Source: Tricholoma matsutake
Taxonomy: Eukaryota; Basidiomycota; Agaricomycetes; Agaricales; Tricholomataceae
Direction of reading: 5' to 3'
NCBI GenBank assembly: GCA_026075535.2
Contig: AP026545.1
Span: forward strand, 8,246,001-8,310,000
DNA: 64,000 bases
This document shows positions 8,815 through 62,067 of the stretch, one piece after another. Position 1 is the stretch's first letter; every line of letters starts with the position of its first letter. A program made the position numbers and the translations under genes. The notes beneath the pieces are model-generated. The model was not told the DNA's origin and did no database searches. It was given only the letters and a program-made list of their open reading frames with translations.

Positions 8815-9160
8815 AGGACCCTGGATAATGCCTATGAAGGCTAAATCCCAATCCAGACAAAATTTGGGCTTTTGCCGAAAATGCTAGATTTTTGCCAGTG
8901 CCAAAATGTCCAGACAAAAGAGGGTCTAATGGGCAAAGGCTAGGTACATTTCCAGACAAATTAGGCCAGGTGCTGAAAATTTTTCATGCATTGACTGTTG
9001 TAAAATTTAGATAACCATCTAGAAATACTCAAAAACAGTGAAAAACTACTCAAAAATGACCAGAAACTGTAGAATCTCTCATTTGAGAGCAATTTGGTAA
9101 TCAGGAACCGGAAATTGCCTTATTTGGAAGCCTAAAAGTCTGGAAGGCTAGGTGAAATCC

Positions 9161-9358
9161 TGTTGTGAGTCGGAGGGGGGTCCCTTAAGATCATGCAGGA
9201 GCTAAACATGAATAATGTATATTATCGGGTGTACTCAAGGTGGTAGTAAAGGATTGCTTATGTAAAATAGAAGGCTGGTCCCTTTATAGGGGCCAGCCAG
9301 GTCAATAGCAAAGAAATATAATATATACAAATGTGGGGTCAAGCCCCAGGTCACCACA
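9161..9358 (-). repeat. gypsy1 3' LTR
   Basis: 198 bp, TGTTGTGAGTC..CACCACA on the plus strand. It differs from the other LTR at seven positions, all at six CpG sites where one copy retains CG and the other has TG or CA, or both have decayed differently (CCCCAGG versus CCCTGGG). Confidence 0.97.
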
Positions 9359-9372
9359 CCCTCCCCCTTAGG
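9359..9372 (-). promoter_or_regulatory. gypsy1 polypurine tract
   Basis: In element orientation AAGGGGGAGGG directly precedes the 3' LTR start TGTGGTGACC, the expected plus-strand primer site for reverse transcription. Confidence 0.85.
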
Positions 9373-9504
9373 CTTTGTCCAGGGGAGAAGCATAATGTTT
9401 TGAGTAAGTAGACGATCTCGAAGAGAGTATCGTCTGGCATGTGGGTATCGTCGGGGTACAACGAGGTGAATCAATTCGTTTGTTTATTAAAAAATGCGAC
9501 GACC

Positions 9505-11907
9505 TTATTTAGTAGGGTCGTTGGGGATGTGGGTATCGTCGAGGCTCAACGATGATATGTTGGACTCGTCGAGGTTCGACAAGGAATTGGGGAGGTTGAC
9601 GTCGACTATCATACGTCTAACTTCCTCCGGAGTTGTGGGTACGGGGTCTTTGCACTCATAATCAGGCGCAGAAGAAAGCAGGGTCGTTTCGTTGTTTGAT
9701 GCCAACAAAGACAATTGGGATATGGGTGTCTCTGGGGAGTTCCCCAGAGTCGAGGTATCTGTCGTTTGCCCTTCATCAAGAGGGAAACGGTCCTTATCGA
9801 CGGTGGACTTATCGACGGTGAATGTTTCATCATCGGATGAAGAGATGGAGTCAGTGGTATCACTGTCATCCTCAGCGTCTCTAACTTTTCATGGCTTGGT
9901 AGACGCGACTGGAGTGAATTTGCTAATGGACTTCTTGTGCCCGTTAGGAGGGATGCCGGCGGCGACTCTCCTAGCTCTCTTCAAGGCCTTCTTCTGGCCT
10001 TGAGTCGCCTTGACAATGAGGGGGGATCCAGACCATCCTGAGTTTGGATCGTTCTCCAGGGAATATTCCTCTGGAGGAGTTGGACGCCAGCCGGACAGAT
10101 ACAAAGGTCTGGCGCTGGCAGGGGGTTGGATGTCCACGTGAGAGGTGCTCGCGTGCATAGATGCAGATAGTCCAGCGGAGAATCTGGAGGACAGGGCAGT
10201 GGAAGTCATTGATTCAGGGCGAGGTTGCCCTGAATGAGAGGGAGCTCCGCCCCTGGTGGGAGCAGTGGATTCTCTTCTTCTTTTTCTTCATGGCTCTCGA
10301 AGGGCCACGTTGTTAGGCCCGGTGATCCACCACTGGGGTTCAGACATCAGAGGAGCGTCCTCTGAACGGGTATTTTGATGTTGCTGCAGACGTCTTATGA
10401 TGTCTGCAGCAGTAGAAGACTCTTCCGAATGGGAAGAGTTGGCAGTAGCCGTTGCTGTAAGCCAGCCGATGGCATAGTGAGAACCTTCTCGGACTTCCTC
10501 ATCTGAGACTCCCATAGAAGCGAGGTGTCGTATGACGTCCTCGAGGGAAATTGTATTGCTGCTGATCAGCATGGGCTGCCGACAGCGCACAGGGGACAGT
10601 GAGAGGTGTTCGTGCCCTCAAATCTGTCGGTACAATCCCGGCATGGCTAGTACCTCCACAATACAAAGGTAGAGAAGTAGTTTGGCTTCAGGGGAGAGCC
10701 CTGAAGGAATCTGTTGACGAAGCAGGAGTTGTCCCCTGACATGTGGGAGGGAGACCCTCTGTTCATCCAGTAGGGTACCAGGGTGGAATTGCCACTGGTA
10801 CAGGTGTCAGTGCATGAATTGCGCCCACGTTTCAGCAGAATCCAGGAGCGAGGGTTGCTCCAGGCAAGTAGGGTTGTTGAGTCAGTGTAATCCTCAAGCC
10901 GACTGCATTTGAACAGGGAGCCAACCAGGTAATCTCCAGTGGGCAAGGGCATAAGTCATCAGGGGTGTTCGAGCCCCTGAAGGAGTGTCATTGACGAACC
11001 GCATGTACTCGCACATTTGTTCCAACATTGTGAAGTTCCCGGAGGTGTGGGCCATCCGGGACCAGCTATCAAATTCCTCAGTGTTCTGAGGAATGGACGT
11101 AGGAACTTGGCCATGCAGCTTGGGAGCTGGTTTCCAGTTTGCCGTCCTGGGAACGTCAGGGCCTGAGAATGTATATCTTGGGGGTGGAAGGTTAGGAAGA
11201 GGTGGGTAGACCTCGTTCATGTTAACGTCCTCGTTGGGGATGACGGGGTGGGGAGCAGGAGGTGGAGCAGGCCGAGAGGCTGCACCGGCATATGAATTAC
11301 CCTGAGGTCTGTCAGGGTAAGGAGAGGGTTCATGAGTATGAGCTCGCTTGGACAAACATCCATCGAGCTGCTCGTGCAGGTGCTCATTCTCATCCTCCAG
11401 GTTCTGGATGGTATCCTGGAGGGCAGCAATATCTTTTTCGTATTCATCATAAACACGATTGGCTCTGGCGAGAGTGCCAGAGTTAATTTCCGAATCTCGA
11501 CGCTTCTTCGTGTCGAAATATTCATCATCGTGGTCATACACGTGGGTGTACACGTGTAAAGGGTAGCTCTTGCAGATGTTGCAAGTGCCTCAGTGAAGGA
11601 CGATGCCTTCACCGTCAATCCTCCAATTTCCAGTAGCGGAAGAGCTGGTGCCCACACCAGCTCACCAGTTTTGTTCTTCTCTAGCAGAACGTCTGCTAGC
11701 ACTGATGGCTTCTTCGATCTCGCCAGGGCTTGGCGAGCGATGGTGTCGAGTGTTGCTGCTGCTTGAGCCGGTGGGCTCGAGCTCTCTCTGCTTCTCCTTC
11801 CCCCTTCGAGACTGGCCACTGGGGCCCGTCTCGTGCATCTGGCTAGGTTCTTTGTCATCGAAATCATCCCCCATGGGGTCGTCCTTGTCTGGTGGAATAC
11901 TCGCCAT
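9505..11907 (-). pseudogene. gypsy1 ORF2: unknown ~800-aa protein in env position
   Basis: Starts at an ATG (11907, MASIPPDKDD) and stays in one frame to a TAA at 9505: 801 codons with eight premature TGA stops, each consistent with a decayed CGA. It begins 125 bp after the gag-pol stop. Visible parts: an acidic Ser-rich start with a SRRGKEK basic patch; a CNIC segment; a predicted coiled coil (YEKDIAALQDTIQNLEDENE); a Pro-rich stretch with YPPLPNLPPPRY; a middle part with LYQWQFHPG and LLLYLCIVEVL; a helical LEDVIRHLASMGVSDEE stretch; a basic KRARR region; and an acidic tail. There is no signal peptide or clear membrane anchor, so an envelope is unlikely; an accessory nucleic-acid- or Gag-binding protein is a guess. 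I recognise no family. Confidence 0.8.
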
Positions 11908-12031
11908 GGTAATGTACCAAGCGATGAAGGAAGAAAAAAATTGAAACTCCATGCATTGTGATGTACAGTTGCGGAGTTTGAAATCTGCTGGACAGTTACA
12001 CGCCCAACATGACTTCGAAATTTCGAAGTAG

Positions 12032-15000
12032 CTAAGTTCGTCGACGCGCAGGAGTTCCTGCGCATTTTGGCAATTCTTGCCAGTCTCTGGCACCCATCAG
12101 TGCCAGATAAGCGTCTAGAGCTGCAAGATCGTTGCAGTTCGCTAAAGGTTCCCAAGTGGTGTCTCCCAGACTCCACTTGACTTCAAACTGGACGGTACGG
12201 CCACACCACTTGTGAGCCATGATCTCTTCAATGTACCATTTGGTGTCATCTGGGGCACCGAAATCATATGTGTTAGGATAACGCCTGTTGGGAAATAATG
12301 AGTCATCGTTAGGGTGGTGAGGCCTTAGTAGGCTCACATGGAAACACTGGTGTATACGCCGGTGTTTCAACTCGCTGGGAAGATCCAGCACATAGCTGGA
12401 TTTTTCAGGTAAAGCTTGTAGGACCTTGTAGGGTCCTACAAATTTAGGTAGCAGCTTACTTGCACATCCCTTTGGCAACGCAAGATTTTTGGTGGAAAGG
12501 TAAACAAGGTCTCCTTGTTTGATATTGGGCTCCTTGCACCGATGCTTGTTAGCATAGTGCCGCTGAAAGACTCTTTCAGCGATGATGCTATCATGGGCCA
12601 CCGCCATGTTTTGCAGTGCATTCATTGCGAAAGTACACAATCTGGGAGGAATGCATTCTGTAGAAGGAAGTTCTTGCATCATGCGAGGCAAGAATCCGTA
12701 GTTGATTTCAAATGGGGCCATACCCATTGCTCTGTTAATGGTAGAGTTTATTGCAAACTCTACGAGAGAGAGGAACTTTACCCAATCTTTCTGATTGGAT
12801 GCAACGAACGCTTGGAGGATTTGAGTGATCGAATGGTTTGCGTGTTCCGTTATTCCATCCGTCTGAGGATGGAATGATGTGGACATGAGTATCTTTATGT
12901 CCAAGATATGGTGGATTTCACGCCACCATTTGGATGTGAATTTAGAGTCTCGATTGCAAATGATCGAGCCAGGTAGTCCATGCAAACGGACAATCTCCTT
13001 CATGAAGATGGGAGATAGTTGCGATGCTGTCGTCGTCATGTTCACCGGGATAAGGTGAACCATGGAAGACAGACAACATATAATTACCCAAAGGTAGTCA
13101 AATCCATTGGACTCTGGGAAGGGTCCAATAAAATCCATTCCAAATGACTCCCATGGTCTCATGGGTGTCGGTAATGAGTGCAGCTTGCCTCAAGGGGAGC
13201 GGTATTCCCCCTTCAAGCAGACGCAAGGTTTGCACGAATCACAGTACTTTTCGACTTCGTATTGAAGTCGAGGCCACCAATACCAACGTCGGATGTATTC
13301 CGATGTTTTCAGAGGGCTGAAATGCCCTACCAGTGTGTGGGCTTGTTTGATGATACGACCATGTAAGGTCATACCCTTGGAAGTAGAGGTGGGGACGCAA
13401 AGAACATCTTCGCCTCCTCTGTTCTTTCTCCAAATGAAATCATCCCGAATCTGGAAGTCCGGGTGGTCCTTAGGTTTTTCAAGAACCTTCTTGAAATGTT
13501 TGTCATTGACATATCCCTTGCAGATATCATCGTTCAGGGGGTCTAACTCTGACATGTGAATGTGCAGGTCAGACCCTTTAGCCTGAGAGGCATAAATCGA
13601 AGGATCATCCTGCGATTGGTTGGTGTCTGAAGGAGTTGTGGTTACTTCTTCCACATTTGCAGTCATTATGGCTGCGGCTGCCTCACGCTCTTCGACTTGT
13701 TCTCAAAGAGCTTTTAGTTGTTCACCAACTTGTTTCTGCTGGCAAGCAGTGGAATGAGTTTCAATTACTCGATTTTTGATTTTGAGATGTCAATCCCACG
13801 GGAGATCCTCGTGGTTGGGGTCGAGACGTACATCTGTGAAGACGTAGTGTTGGACTAAAGGAGCATCATCCCAAGAGTCAAATTGGTAGTAGCGGGACAG
13901 AGCGTCCGCTACTTTGTTCAATTTGCCTTTGACATAACAAATGTCAAAGTCGAAACATGATAGATATTCCATCCATCGCATTTGCCTAGCAGACAGTCGG
14001 CATTGAGTTTGGAAAAACTCAAGTGCCTGGTGATCGGTGATGACATGAATGCGCCTACTGATCAGTTTGTCTTCCCACTTGAGGAGTGCCTCAAGTATGG
14101 CAATCGTCTCATGCTCAAAGGTACGGTAGTTCCTTTGAGTGTCGGAGAATTTCTTGGACAGGAACCCAGCAGGGCGGCAAGTTTGCCACTCGGGTCCCTG
14201 ACCATACATTGCCCCAGTCCCAAAGACTGAGGTGTCACAGATCACCCATATCGGTTCAGGTGAATCTGGGCCGATTGGCTTCAGCACTGGTGTCATGCAA
14301 CAGATGTGTTTAATCATCTGGAAGCAATGATCGTGCAATGGTCGCCACAAAAAGGCTTGGCCATTTTTAGTCATCGCAGAAAGTGGACTAGTGAAAGCAC
14401 TTATATCTGGCAGGAAATGTGCCAGATACTGCACAAGTCCCAGAAAATGCTGGACTTCGTGATAATTACGAGGAGTTTTCCACTCTCGTATATGCACCAT
14501 TTTATCGCTATCAGCGTGTGGGCCGTGTTCATCAATCATGTGACCGAGACACTCTACCTTTTCAGCATAGAGTTCACACTTCTCTGCATGAAGGTACAGA
14601 GAATGCTCGCGTAGCTTGTTAAACACAAGCTCCAGATGTTTCTGGTGTTCTTTGATCATGTCACTGAACACGAAAATGTCGTCCAGGTAGGCGTGGATGA
14701 ATATTCCGATGTAGTCTCGGAATATGGAGTTCATCAACCTCTGAAAAGTTGATGGTGCATTGCAGTCACCTTGTTGCATAACAAGACTCTCATAAACGCC
14801 TTGAACAGTCGAGAATGCAGTTTTCCAGATGTCTTCTGGCGCAACTCAGACCTGCTCATAGGCATCCGAGAGGTCAATCTTTGAGCGGTACTTTGCTCGA
14901 GCGACATCAAGACAAATCAAGTCTTGATCAGGAAACGGTGTAACATCTTTCACCGTGTTAGCGTTACGTTTCACTGCATTGATCACAGTGCGAAGTTTCC

Positions 15001-18000
15001 CTGTTTTCTTGGGAACTACTAGCATCGGAGCTGCTTGCTCCACGCGGGCAGGGCACCACCAGCCTGCCTTGCAGTACTTGGATATTTTCTCGGCGAGGGG
15101 TTTCCTCATCGAGTCCGGACATTTGGGAAGATAGTAGTTATACTTCTTCTTCTCATCCACCAGTGGGATATGGTGGTTTATCTCCCTTAAAGGAGGAAGT
15201 TTGTCAGGTACTCCATTAAGGATGTCCTGACAAGATTGTTTCCACTCCTCACGGAGGCGTGGAAGGTCCTTCTTTGAAAGAGGTCCTTTACTTTTAGCTT
15301 TATCAGCCAGATCTTCGCAAATTGCGAAGAGTATGTCGTTCAGGTCATCAACCTGATCTGGCAGAAGTACCGCAGGGATAGAGGGATCGAACCCGGGAGG
15401 TTCGAAATTGGGTCCATTGGGAAATCTATCCCGAGTGAATTCCTGGACAATCTCTTCCAGATCGTCCTCTTCATCGCTCAGGGGTCCCTCTTCGGGTCCC
15501 AAAAGGACGGGGTCCAAAAGTTTCAGCTTCGATGGACAATGTTTGTCAACATCGTCTATTTCTTCCATTTCAACATTCCTACATCTCACAGACGGAGGTT
15601 GCACTTTCGTAGAACTCGGACCAGGCTTGTCCAGATCTTTTTTCTTTTGTGCGGCCGGGTGGCCATGGTCGAGTCACTCATCCTTGGGAGGTTGAGGATG
15701 CATAGCATGCCGCCGGGCTTGCTTGAAAGTGTTAGGGCCCTCGATGATGGTATCGAGGTGTTTGCCCTTGACGCGTACTTCGTCACGTTCGAAGTCTAAT
15801 ACTATACCATGTTTTCTCATGAACACAGTGCCCAGAATGGTGTCATACCTATCGATGTTAACAACATCGAAGTAGTGGGTGTTTTTGATTTCACCAATTT
15901 CAAAATCGGTGAATAGTCCGAAGTTGATCTTCCAACAGCTTCCAACGGTGCCCAATTGCAATGGCACCAGTTCTTCCAATTTGTGGGCTTTAAGGTTCGC
16001 TGACATGGCGAACTCAGGTGAGATTGAATCAGACGTGCAGCCTGAATCAAGGAGGATGAAAGCTTCAAGTTCATGAAGCCTCATTTTTGCCACGAAGCAA
16101 CGGTTGTCCTTCTCTGAGCGAGGAGGACGGGTTATTTTCTTTGAGGATCTCCTCAAAGTGGTTGCGCCTCTAAAGTGCGGTTTGTTTTTGAAAAGGTTGT
16201 CCATCATGATGCCTAATCTTTCAGAAAATGATGGAGATTTCTTCTCCGTCTCGTCCTCAGAGTCTTCCTCTGAGTCAGATACTGATTGGGTGGATGGGCA
16301 ACTATCAGAGTCATACTCTGAAAGGATTTCTCGGATCGCACCAAAGTGCTCTGATCCAGAATATTCACTGGGGTTATCTCCAGTGTCAGATTCCAAGTTG
16401 TACAGTTCACCTTCTGAACTGTACTGAGAACCGTCAGGGTTCATGTCTGACAACGCAGACCCATACTCAGAGGGAGTGTTGTCCTCTGAGTCGCTGTATG
16501 CTGCGGTGAGTCGTTCACTCATTGCAGAGTGTCCCTGGTAGGACTCGAGTGGTGATCACCGCTTGGTTGAGCACGGGATGTCTGGAGATCAGTCATAGAG
16601 CCTGATCCTTCCCGAGGGACCTCCACAGCTATAACAAGTCGGGGTCTTCTTGTCATCAGACCTTTTGTCTGATTTGGGTCTGGAATGTCTGGATGGTTTT
16701 CCTCCAGATGAGCGATGTCGAGTATCACGACGATCTTTGTTATGGCAATCGCTATCGCCGTGACTTCAAACTTCCTTGGTAGGATACTTCAAACCCGGAT
16801 ATTTAGAGTTGTCACGATAGTTCTTATCCTGTTTTTGGGAACAATTTCGGGATCATTCATGAGACCGTTCAGGTGAAGGGTCTTTTGTTTTAGAACTTTT
16901 AGTCGAAGAGGATGCGCTCTTCGACTTGGTGGAATCCATTATACGCTTCTTTTCGTTGAAGCGTTTTCTCATTTTACCTATTTCCTCTGCCTGGCAGGCA
17001 AAGTGTAGAATATCTTGCACTGAGCTTGTCTCAGCAGAGCATCCTTTGTCCAGTACAAAGGAGATGATGCTTGTGGGCAACCCGGTCACTAATTGCATTT
17101 TGAACATAAAAGGATCAGGCGCCTGTATCATCCTGGTAGCATATTGCTCCAGTTTGTGGTAATAGCCCATAATGCCTTCTTCGGCGTTATATTCAACGTG
17201 CCAGAATTTATCGGTCGCGTTGTGCATCACATTTTCATGCACAAACTGGTCGTATAGGCCGGTGATGACTTCTTTGAAAGTCCAGATTGAGCCTGGGCAG
17301 TATGCACCGTCAACACTATCCTCAAACCAAGTGAGGGCGGTGTTCTCAAGGAACATCGCTGTATATTCAATACGGTCTGAGTCCAGCTCAGGGCCGCATA
17401 CCTTGTTCACCTTCAACCACCGAAGAAGGGCATTTAGCCATCTTTCAAAGCTTTCAGTGTCAGGTAATCTGCCATACTTTGACAGATTGGGAACACGGGG
17501 ACCGTTCTTGCCTCCAGTGGTAGGAATTTCTGTCAAGACAGAGACCTTGTTGTCAATCTGTCTATATATCTTGGTATGGATGTCCCTCAAATATTTTGAG
17601 GGACGGCAAGAGCCTTTTTCTCGATAAGAATCGGGATGGGAAGATGTAGACCAGTAAGGGCTATTTGGCTCTTGTTGGGTACCAGAATGTCCAGATGGCG
17701 TACATCTGGAAGAATTGTGAGTCTGCGTTTCTCGTTGATGATTCGACGAGTTTCTGCGGGACGCCTCTTCCTCTACCCGGGAAGAATAATTGGTACTGTC
17801 GTCGCTCGACGTGCCATACGTCAAGTTGCTATCACTTCCATTATCATCACCCCCGGATCCATCTCCATCTGGTGGTCCTCCATGGCCTGCGTGACTCTGC
17901 GCAGGCCGTCTGGAATTTCCAGAGGGTGGGATGTCCCACTTCTGATGGCGAGATGAAGTGTCATCCTTATCCCAAGGTTGACCACCTTTGTCAAAGCGGA

Positions 18001-19012
18001 TCCCCTGGTTGGGGATCAAGGTGGGATGTCCGTCCTGGATATCGCCATCGTGTATCCTTTGAAGGACGATCCTGTTGTTGTTGATGTAGTGTACCTTCTT
18101 CTTAGAAGGTACTTCACAAGATAACTCGGGGTTTTGTAGATGTGGGGAACCACGTCTATGTGCGGAAGGATCTTCTTGTTCTGCAGGGTTGGTGGAACGA
18201 GGTAGGATAGGATTGGGATCTTGTTCCGCTGTGGTGGGACGAAGGATGGTAGGGTTAAATATACTCCTACCAGAAAAGTGTCTGGCATAACTCAACGCCA
18301 GATCTTTAAGTTGCTTTTCCAACTTAATAGGTTCAAAATCTCTTGCATCCATGCAACGGGTAAACATATCCGTTGTGATCTGAGCAAAGTGCTCAGCTCC
18401 AAACTCTTCGTCCGATTCATCCTCTTGAGGTTTCTCGAGGGGCTTTTTCTCTTCTCGTCGGCGCAGCCGATCGTTAGTGTTCATCGGTGTTGTGGGCACT
18501 GATGGTGTTAAATCCAGCCACACAGCAGGAAATAATCCAGGTGTATTGTACACCTGGTGGTTGCAGGGAAGATCAATACCACTACCGGGGGTAACCCGGT
18601 TGTTGTTGGGCTCTGGGGTTAATTCATCCAGAGGAGAAAGGTTCAGCAAACCAGGAGGAGGTCCTGGGTTAGGTTGAGAGTCTCGTTGACTGTTTTTCAA
18701 TGAGGAAGATTTTCTGGATTCGGGATCACTGTCGTCGGCATCCTCAACGGTGGCCCATTGATGGTGTAGTCTGAGGGCAGAGGAATTGATGTTTCTCGAA
18801 GCGGCTGTATGTGCTTCGAGGGTATCCCTAGTAGGGGAAACATTGTTTCTCGAGGTGCTTGTATGTGCCTCAAGTGGATGGGGTCCAGTTAAATCTCTCG
18901 GCACGCGCCGAGGAGAATCCGAGCCTGATGGCGATGGATGAGAGTTACCTTGCGTGGCCTGCTTAGGAGCAGGCTTCAGTTTGTTCTTGGTTTTGGCCTT
19001 GGTGTAGGCCAT
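12032..19012 (-). pseudogene. gypsy1 gag-pol polyprotein, broken only by TGA stops
   Basis: One frame of 2327 codons from ATG at 19012 to TAG at 12032. Order: disordered N-terminus; capsid-like gag with FERWLNALLRWLK and LTWFEDSV; zinc-knuckle remnant CYSCGG; aspartic protease with DSG near residue 989 and ILGTVFM; reverse transcriptase with IDLSDAY and YLDD near residue 1442; RNase H with CDTSVFGTGA, FEHETIAILEAL, TDHQALEFF; integrase H2C2 (HTLVGH..CDSCKPC); integrase core with D near 1960 and E near 2056; C-terminal chromodomain-like WYIEEIMAHK..VKWSLGDTTWEP. Nine in-frame TGA stops fit CGA. The second integrase Asp is Asn (CNRDSKF), explained by TGC|GAT to TGC|AAT at a CpG. No frameshift. 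Gag and Pol share one frame. Confidence 0.95.
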
Positions 19013-19266
19013 GGGGTCGGTCTTGTTGTACAGTCTTCAGCAATGGAGAAAAAGGAAAAAAAAATTTCAGTTGTAGCAGCGGGTGAAAAGCAAAGAGTCG
19101 AGTGCAAAAGAAACTTGATTCAGGTCCTAGCGACGGATATGCTTCCATCGCTGATCACGTTGAGAATTTTCTCCCTTCATGGGAGAAGTTCAGGGTCGTG
19201 TTGATGACGATCGCTGATGGGGCGATGTCGAGCTTAACTCTATATGAGTTTGGGTGTTTAAAAAAC
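19013..19266 (-). other. gypsy1 5' leader
   Basis: Untranslated region between the 5' LTR and the gag start. Directly after the LTR (element orientation) comes GTTTTTTAAACACCC; I do not recognise a tRNA-complementary primer binding site. Confidence 0.6.
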
Positions 19267-19464
19267 TGTTGTGAGTCAGAGGGGGGTCCCTTAAGATCAT
19301 GCAGGAGCTAAACACGAATAACGTATATTATTGGGTGTACTCGAGGTGGTAGTAAAGGATTGCTTATGTAAAATAGAAGGCTGGTCCCTTTATAGGGGCC
19401 AGCCAGGTCAATAGCAAAGAAATATAATATATACAAATGTGGGGTCAAGCCCTGGGTCACCACA
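19267..19464 (-). repeat. gypsy1 5' LTR
   Basis: 198 bp. It keeps CG at ACACGAATAACG where the other LTR has TG, and TTGGG where the other has TCGGG, so both LTRs have decayed independently at CpG sites since insertion. Confidence 0.97.
19380..19406 (-). promoter_or_regulatory. TATA-like hairpin in gypsy1 5' LTR
   Basis: On the minus strand CCCCTATAAAGGGACC places a TATAAA in the loop of an inverted repeat GGCTGG.CCC..GGG.CCAGCC. This is a candidate core promoter; the same structure exists in the 3' LTR. Confidence 0.5.
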
Positions 19465-19566
19465 AATCCAGACAAAATCATGAAAAATCTGTCCAGACAA
19501 AAGTGCTAAAATTGTGACTATTTGGGATCTAGCCTCTGCAGGCATTATCTGGGGTCCTGGTAACAT

Positions 19567-23633: not shown

Positions 23634-23912
23634 TAGGGATCTGCACGGGTTTTGTGTACCCATATGGGTTATGGGTACGGGTACATGTGGGTATGGGTAT
23701 GGGTCACAATAGTCCTACCCATGAGCTACAAAACGCACCAAAAATCAAGCAAAATGGTCAAGAATATCAAGCAAAATGGTCAATTCTTGACCATTTTGCT
23801 TGATTTTGGTGCGTTTTGTAGCTAAGACCTGCGGGTTTATGGGTAAAACCTGTCACAGTCACGGGTACGGGTACAGTGTGAAATACCCAGGGGTTACCCA
23901 TGCAGATCCCTA
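23634..23912. mobile_element. hAT-like MITE (TAGGGATCTGC family), copy 1
   Basis: 279 bp, near-palindromic throughout. The ends TAGGGATCTGCACGGGTT and AACCCATGCAGATCCCTA-type inverted repeats are flanked by an exact 8-bp duplication TTCATGCC (23626-23633 and 23913-23920). Subterminal GGGTACGGGTA and GGGTATGGGTATGGGT motifs repeat, and the centre is a long hairpin around CAAGCAAAATGGTCAA. Non-coding. Confidence 0.95.
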
Positions 23913-51401: not shown

Positions 51402-51653
51402 TAGGGATCTGCATGGGTAACCCCCAGGTATTTCGTGCTGTACCTGTACCCGTACCCGTGACAGGTTTTACCCGTAAACCTGCAGGTCTTAGGTACAAAA
51501 TGCACCAAAAATCAAGCAAAATGGTCAAGAATTGACCATTTTGCTTGACTTTTGGTGTGTTTTGTAGCTCATGGGTAGGACTACTGCGACCCGTACCCAT
51601 ACCCACATGTACCCGTAACCCATATGGGTACACAAAACCTGTGCAGATCCCTA
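51402..51653. mobile_element. hAT-like MITE (TAGGGATCTGC family), copy 2
   Basis: 252 bp with ends TAGGGATCTGC..GCAGATCCCTA and the exact 8-bp duplication CTCCTGGC (51394-51401 and 51654-51661). Inverted relative to the copy at 23634. The central hairpin around TTGACCATTTTGCTTGA is conserved. Confidence 0.95.
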
Positions 51654-61897: not shown

Positions 61898-62067
61898 CAG
61901 TTGGAGGCTTTCCAACTGTATCAATATTGCACTAGGAGGCTTTCCTAGTGTATCGGGCTTCCTGCCTTCACTTGGGTACTTCCTCAAGTCATCGCGGCTA
62001 TCCATACTCAGAGGCTTTCTGAGTAGACTGTCCATTCATGTATCACAGTTGGAGGCTTTCCAACTGT
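61898..62067. repeat. Four hairpins with conserved GGCTT loop and different stems
   Basis: CAGTTGGA-GGCTT-TCCAACTG (61898-61918), CACTAGGA-GGCTT-TCCTAGTG (61930-61950), TACTCAGA-GGCTT-TCTGAGTA (62005-62025) and again CAGTTGGA-GGCTT-TCCAACTG (62046-62066). All have perfect 8-bp stems with compensating changes. Confidence 0.9.

Follow-up and report, generated by a model that had tools for sequence, protein, structure and literature searches.

Why should the coding sequence of a retrotransposon be crowded with short perfect hairpins? The question is raised by gypsy1, an element lying in a 64,000-nucleotide stretch of the Tricholoma matsutake genome (contig AP026545.1, positions 8,246,001 to 8,310,000; hereafter the window). 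gypsy1 is a Ty3/gypsy retrotransposon of 10.3 kb. Across positions 9505-19012 of the window, counting perfect stems with loops of 3-12 nt, we found 115, 69, 43, 18 and 5 hairpins at stems of at least 6, 7, 8, 9 and 10 bp, respectively. Sixty dinucleotide-preserving shuffles of the element gave means of 19.3, 4.7, 1.28, 0.28 and 0.10 at the same lengths, and their maxima were 29, 10, 4, 2 and 1. When synonymous codons were permuted within eight open reading frame (ORF) segments of gypsy1, the ORFs carried 59 stems of at least 7 bp versus 6.65 in the shuffles, and 34 of at least 8 bp versus 1.8. Longer stems are the more enriched: 2.9-fold at 6 bp, 25-fold at 8 bp and 46-fold at 9 bp. The original prediction, which had listed 21 hairpins and proposed a comparison with codon- and dinucleotide-preserving shuffles, was borne out: all 21 are present where it placed them, with perfect stems of 8-10 bp, and gypsy1 is far denser than either control. 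Its chance expectation of one 8-bp stem per 8-10 kb was also about right, but its overall density of one hairpin per 40-60 bases was too high, as stems of at least 6 bp occur every ~83 bases.

The hairpins are distributed across the coding sequence and their stem sequences differ from one another. The longest stem in the window's element is 10 bp; in other copies isolated hairpins reach 11-12 bp. The excess peaks at loops of 5-6 nt and is gone from about 15 nt (ratios of 0.8-1.4 for loops of 15-40 nt). Stems stop abruptly, with pairing past the first mismatch at about chance level; pairing beyond the terminal mismatch, or past mismatches and bulges, was dropped as a discriminator between explanations, being near chance in gypsy1 and in RNA phages alike. 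No loop motif was shared among 71 hairpins (AACT was the sole loop to occur twice), no Rfam family matched gypsy1 at gathering score, and no tandem repeats were found inside it. In lineage A, to which the window's copy belongs, the 5' stem arms are pyrimidine-rich in their outer half and purine-rich in their inner half (+0.243, standard error 0.048); the same polarity is seen in a lineage B copy, L031 (+0.177, standard error 0.081), and not in a lineage C copy, L067 (-0.067, standard error 0.074). The earlier remark that some stems mismatch only where a CpG has decayed held in part. Of 44 stems interrupted by a single internal G.T or A.C, 22 have the mismatched base within a TG or CA. The pol region contains 16 such mismatches, and a comparison with 17 sister copies showed 7 to be paired in some of them and 9 in none.

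The hairpins are not peculiar to one copy. The 13 contigs of the genome (161,040,721 bases) hold at least 40 copies related to gypsy1 by nucleotide search and at least 122 matches by protein search. The 73 loci that we examined represent 61 distinct copies by place, the window's included, which are ~65-100% identical and form lineages A (~94-95% identical to the window's copy), B (~88%) and C (~65%). Stems of at least 8 bp exceeded the locus's own shuffle mean in all 73 loci; the lowest count, in L072, was 4 versus 0.2. Most A copies carry 15-20 such stems per 4 kb, C1 copies ~10, and C2 and C3 copies 6.6. Protein relatives numbered 456, those named among the 120 listed coming from Mycena, Phanerochaete, Phlebia and Trametes, and a Mycena protein used as a query against the T. 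matsutake genome led to places already known, among 37 scored candidates. Viral and genome contig collections yielded no DNA of relatives from outside this genome.

The excess might be put down to chance, to base composition or codon usage, or to an assembly artefact, and the rest of the window does show a mild one, with mean folding z-scores near -0.5. The dinucleotide and codon shuffles rule out chance, composition and codon usage, and 61 separate copies on many contigs agree. This explanation deserves practically no credence. In 2-kb bins, where ~0.3 stems of at least 8 bp are expected, bins inside gypsy1 hold 5-10 and those with other gypsy pieces 0-4. DNA outside gypsy1 in general holds 0-4 per bin; the only other bin with more than four, at 1-2000, owes its count to a 22-bp tandem repeat. 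The claim that other gypsy elements lack the pattern is therefore largely correct, although a mild excess remains in the rest of the window.

An excess of hairpins is common to all lineages, but their places are less so. Hairpin centres common to A and B number 27 (of 36 in A and 44 in B), whereas A and C, ~65% identical, have only five in common (of 36 in A and 24 in C), and C is still dense. Hairpin positions therefore turn over while density stays. This comparison aligned the window and 44 of the 73 loci; those omitted were the window's own locus, second fetches of the same copy and loci not chosen, mostly for partial cover. One of the aligned loci, L069, aligned at only 0.58 identity and was excluded from later comparisons, in which C1, C2 and C3 were kept separate. 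The turnover bears on an earlier suggestion that the hairpins are many Gag-binding stem-loops. Position-specific Gag sites are unlikely as a general explanation, because only these five centres coincide and because loops change at the background rate (see below).

The mean folding z-score per 150 nt of gypsy1 is -2.53 for the sense strand and -2.44 for the antisense strand (68 windows); both strands fold well past their controls, and nearly equally. The one other gypsy element that was folded (53.2-56.4 kb) has a mean of -0.16, and window DNA outside gypsy1 averages -0.54 sense and -0.47 antisense (342 windows). Over the pol region of 21 other copies (6 A, 6 B, 4 C1, 3 C2 and 2 C3), the means are -2.93 for A, -2.63 for B, -1.62 for C1, -1.21 for C2 and -1.13 for C3. 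The single-stranded RNA (ssRNA) phages MS2 (-3.03 sense, -2.43 antisense) and Qbeta (-3.15 and -2.70) likewise have coding RNA that is folded throughout, and lineages A and B come close to them.

Such values could reflect structure in the sense RNA only, either as a genome-scale ordered RNA or as many dispersed packaging hairpins bound by Gag. The very low folding energy over gypsy1 and over the pol region of other copies is what this explanation expects, as are the constraint on third codon positions in stems and a slight lean of A and B towards the sense strand, both described below. However, selection on sense RNA alone should leave room for G.U pairs. In E. coli ribosomal RNA (rRNA), the excess of stems of at least 6 bp with one mismatch is 11.1 for G.T and 3.6 for A.C, whereas in gypsy1 the two are alike (16.9 and 19.4), and with two mismatches A.C leads (18.4 versus 3.4). 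The pair next to gypsy1 stems of at least 6 bp is G.T in 14 of 118 cases and A.C in 31; in MS2 and Qbeta together it is G.T in 13 of 41 and A.C in 3. The phages also favour G.T over A.C with one mismatch at stems of at least 8 bp (10.6 versus 6.8), though not at 7 bp or more (10.0 versus 14.4). gypsy1 thus lacks the G.U preference of rRNA and, at stems of at least 8 bp and at stem ends, that of the phages. Part of the A.C lead in gypsy1 arises because A and C are commoner on its sense strand. There is, moreover, no strand difference in the C lineages, where sense minus antisense z is about 0 in C1 and C2 and +0.11 (standard error 0.15) in C3, and the lack of a shared loop motif, of loop constraint and of an Rfam match also speaks against sense-only structure. 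Folding selection on two strands, or a template-directed process, fits the wobble and strand data, and sense-RNA structure alone fits them less well; we regard it as an improbable account, at roughly one chance in five. The idea of an ordered RNA genome raised by the original prediction survives in modified form: conserved, ordered structure is supported by z-scores near those of MS2 and Qbeta in A and B and by constrained synonymous sites in stems, but it does not seem to be simply that of the sense RNA, as G.U does not exceed A.C and folding is almost as strong in the antisense strand.

The constraint was measured by defining stems in one group and counting changes between groups. Between A and B, third codon positions changed at 7 of 157 sites in A stems and at 120 of 1029 outside (odds ratio 0.35, p=0.005); between C1 and C2, the counts from C1 stems were 13 of 107 and 256 of 1007 (0.41, p=0.002). 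Taken from B stems they were 9/176 versus 117/999, and from C2 stems 11/89 versus 259/1031, so that the four odds ratios between close lineages span 0.35-0.42; with CpG sites removed they span 0.30-0.48. Loops were not below background (8/48 for A versus B and 10/41 for C1 versus C2), and first and second codon positions showed no significant stem difference in the same four comparisons. Over the greater distance between A and C, constraint is present when seen from C1 stems (0.439 versus 0.570). Because third positions change less in stems between close lineages, the aligned copies indicate that the hairpins are maintained in the short run and are not relics. A lower substitution rate in stems between the window's copy and its close copies (0.033 versus 0.057) was set aside as evidence, since picking perfect stems in one copy itself makes that bias.

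The sister copies were also to be searched, according to the original prediction, for compensatory changes in stems, and here the outcome was divided. Among pairs of A hairpins altered on both sides in C, 11 of 15 are Watson-Crick, as are 10 of 16 for B hairpins, the A and B sets overlapping; the opposing counts are given with the other unfavourable points below. For C, both these double-change counts and the counts of nonsynonymous differences drew on the tight C1 cluster, which makes up 9 of its 15 loci. The codon phase that is least adjustable by synonymous change (class 1) holds 6 of 34 stems of at least 8 bp. Stem G+C declines with stem length in two of five sets (rho -0.25, p=0.04; rho -0.40, p=0.015); this hints weakly at a threshold of stability and vanishes at stems of at least 8 bp in the window's element. 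One-arm clustering of differences and codon-phase bias in the phages were too sparse to point in either direction.

A main rival is a mutational origin. During reverse transcription the nascent strand could fold back and copy itself, and such template switching would correct imperfect inverted repeats (quasipalindromes) into perfect ones as a by-product devoid of function. According to one study, template switching can both generate perfect stems and preserve them (PMC8794818). The hairpins expected from this process are perfect, strand-symmetric and short-looped like those of gypsy1. The strand symmetry without wobble preference, the restriction of the excess to short loops and the weak codon-phase bias at 7-bp stems all suit this origin. 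Its footprints (templated clusters, long stems and, by eye, loop inversions), on the other hand, were not found here, within limited power. The search for templated clusters covered 48 loci, namely 19 A (the window's own among them), 20 B and 9 C1. Of the 193 clusters of private mutations in these three groups, none had a nearby reverse-complement match of at least 10 nt, two had one of 9 nt, and direct matches numbered four; the power of this test is limited because most private changes probably postdate insertion. By eye, no inverted loops were noticed among the listed hairpins common to A, B and C. Single-sided changes outnumber double ones between close lineages; the tail of long stems that the process should leave is missing from the window's element, with none above 10 bp and only singles of 11-12 bp in other copies; and nonsynonymous differences show no clear rise in stems. 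The LTRs (long terminal repeats), which are also reverse transcribed, contain no hairpins in 408 nt, albeit as two copies of one short sequence, and the least adjustable codon phase is depleted at stems of at least 8 bp. No single point is decisive between selection and mutation. The trace of template switching that the original prediction had offered as one possibility is an unlikely source, with a standing similar to that of sense-only structure; nearby reverse complements of at least 10 nt account for none of the private clusters. Stem G+C had been considered as a means of separating mutation from selection for stability and was dropped, since MS2 and Qbeta taken jointly have no raised stem G+C (odds of 0.94; Qbeta alone 1.30).

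The hairpins might instead be short palindromes acting at the DNA level, as sites for protein binding or recombination in the integrated element. Strand symmetry accords with this, and so does the arm polarity of A and B. Yet the stem sequences differ from one another, the polarity is missing from the one C copy tested, and the hairpins are spread through coding sequence, all of which makes DNA sites very improbable.

Selection for many small hairpins working on both strands, as in ssRNA phages, is the best explanation that we can offer, and we give it about an even chance of being correct. Under such selection the coding sequence of the gypsy1 lineages would be kept as a string of discrete hairpins, with stems of ~7-10 bp and loops of ~3-10 nt, mainly through synonymous sites. 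The selected trait would be that each strand can fold on itself, the sense strand as mRNA and genomic RNA and the complementary strand as antisense RNA or minus-strand cDNA; G.U pairs would not be favoured, because a G.U that is good in one strand is an A.C mismatch in the other. In ssRNA phages, hairpins hinder the annealing of complementary strands. By analogy, the likely benefit to gypsy1 would be that complementary strands do not anneal into long double-stranded RNA that feeds RNA silencing, and compaction of the RNA would be a further likely one. Stems of the gypsy1 type are shorter than Dicer usually requires. We infer function for the hairpins from this analogy. A more specific proposal is that small perfect hairpins strung along both strands, with perfect stems at a higher density than in RNA phages, guard a retrotransposon lineage against double-stranded RNA formed with its own antisense and thus against silencing, as a sequence-wide structural defence written largely in synonymous sites; we put this forward tentatively, as it is more probably wrong than right.

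Several observations weigh against selection on both strands through synonymous sites. Seen from A stems, constraint is absent between A and C (third-position change of 0.550 in stems versus 0.559 outside). Among pairs of C hairpins altered on both sides in A, only 5 of 13 are Watson-Crick, no better than chance, and two-sided Watson-Crick changes are few between close lineages (1-2 for A/B and 0-2 for C1/C2). The codon-phase classes of stems of at least 7 bp (23/19/16) are hardly biased, nor is the class-1 share in the B and C groups (14/50, 9/24, 7/22 and 4/18), so that the hairpins need not have been reached by synonymous changes alone. G+C is scarcely higher in stems (odds of 0.98-1.28), and the phages are similar in this respect. 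Sense minus antisense z is -0.25 (standard error 0.12) in A and -0.23 (standard error 0.11) in B, from six non-independent copies each, and sense A.C mismatches in gypsy1 are slightly above the expectation from composition.

Coding RNA that folds throughout is familiar from RNA viruses and phages. In genome-scale ordered RNA structure (GORS), conserved positions are usually missing. gypsy1 resembles GORS (PMC9784701) in that the folding energy of its coding genome lies far under shuffled controls, and differs from it as an LTR retrotransposon with discrete, perfect, short stems, nearly equal strands and no G.U preference. In perfect stems of at least 8 bp, gypsy1 is several times richer than the phages, with 43 in 9.5 kb compared with 2 in 3.6 kb for MS2 and 5-6 in 4.2 kb for Qbeta; at ~6-10 per 4 kb, the C lineages lie closer to Qbeta. 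At stem ends, G.U is preferred in the phages and not in gypsy1. The gypsy element marY1 shares host and superfamily with gypsy1, but it is 6,047 bp long with 426-bp LTRs (PMC10211490), as against 10.3 kb and 198 bp. A report of pervasive folding in an LTR retrotransposon was not among the literature matches listed, which covered titles and the starts of abstracts and left subscription journals mostly outside.

The whole element occupies 9161-19464, with its coding sequence on the minus strand. It is assigned to Ty3/gypsy because of its LTRs with TG...CA ends, an AATCC target-site duplication (9156-9160 on the left and 19465-19469 on the right, without strand) and its domain order by Pfam, gag, protease, reverse transcriptase, RNase H, integrase, as in Ty3/gypsy. 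The 5' LTR (19267-19464) and the 3' LTR (9161-9358), both on the minus strand and 198 bp long, are free of hairpins with stems of at least 7 bp and are 96.5% identical over 199 aligned bases. All coding segments are likewise on the minus strand. The gag ORF of 719 amino acids (16853-19012) and the protease segment (15674-16522) match Retrotrans_gag and RVP_2 weakly, below the curated cut-offs. The segment at 14846-15604, carrying the N-terminal part of reverse transcriptase, has no Pfam match of its own and is continuous with reverse transcriptase in copy L004. The reverse transcriptase and RNase H segment (13790-14779) and the integrase zinc-binding segment (13190-13666) match Pfam above the cut-offs. 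In the segment at 12032-13162 the integrase core (rve) and a candidate chromodomain after integrase (E=2e-4), which would mark the chromovirus type, fall below theirs, and a Tf2-1-like SH3 domain lies above its own. An accessory ORF region, 9505-12093, follows pol; the two segments of this ORF2 that were scanned, at 11662-12093 and 10894-11553, have no Pfam match. Two more open stretches, 9889-10287 and 9505-9888, together spanning 9505-10287, are probably its frameshifted end.

The 43 perfect hairpins with stems of at least 8 bp, for which no strand is assigned, are as follows, with loop lengths in nucleotides in brackets. Stems of 10 bp lie at 17582-17604 (3), 16901-16926 (6), 16400-16424 (5), 12416-12441 (6) and 10382-10411 (10). 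Stems of 9 bp lie at 18537-18557 (3), 18091-18112 (4), 16465-16491 (9), 14701-14725 (7), 14404-14428 (7), 13927-13949 (5; common to B and C), 12852-12875 (6), 12741-12763 (5; common to B and C, with a compensatory pair change in C), 12561-12581 (3; in 16 of 18 A copies and none of 12 B copies), 11642-11663 (4), 11297-11320 (6), 11073-11094 (4) and 10212-10235 (6). Stems of 8 bp lie at 18795-18820 (10), 18306-18327 (6), 17884-17907 (8), 17690-17710 (5), 17220-17244 (9), 17042-17062 (5), 16139-16158 (4), 15852-15870 (3), 15312-15330 (3; a lineage C hairpin at the same place has a paired change), 14906-14928 (7), 14114-14139 (10; common to B and C), 14077-14096 (4; common to B and C), 14003-14022 (4), 13888-13913 (10), 13477-13496 (4), 13251-13271 (5), 12502-12520 (3), 12086-12107 (6), 11681-11699 (3), 11537-11558 (6), 10686-10706 (5), 10419-10439 (5), 10347-10365 (3), 9981-10003 (7) and 9730-9749 (4).

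Elsewhere in the window, an array of a 22-bp unit at 1061-1312 contains the palindrome TCCAATTGGA. Four perfect 8-9 bp hairpins, all with the loop GGCTT, stand within 170 nt at 61898-62067 and comprise three stem sequences, one occurring twice. Two long perfect hairpins, at 23766-23804 and 51512-51548, have stems of 18 and 17 bp and nearly identical arm sequences.

Taken as a whole, the gypsy1 copies suggest that pressure to remain folded can act on a retrotransposon from end to end. If the hairpins are selected, the synonymous sites of a transposon would bear a structural load along the whole element, a single genome would supply many copies of several lineages for study, and why some RNA genomes fold throughout would become testable in a fungus. 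If they are mutational, they would point unusually strongly to template switching as a force that shapes a retroelement.

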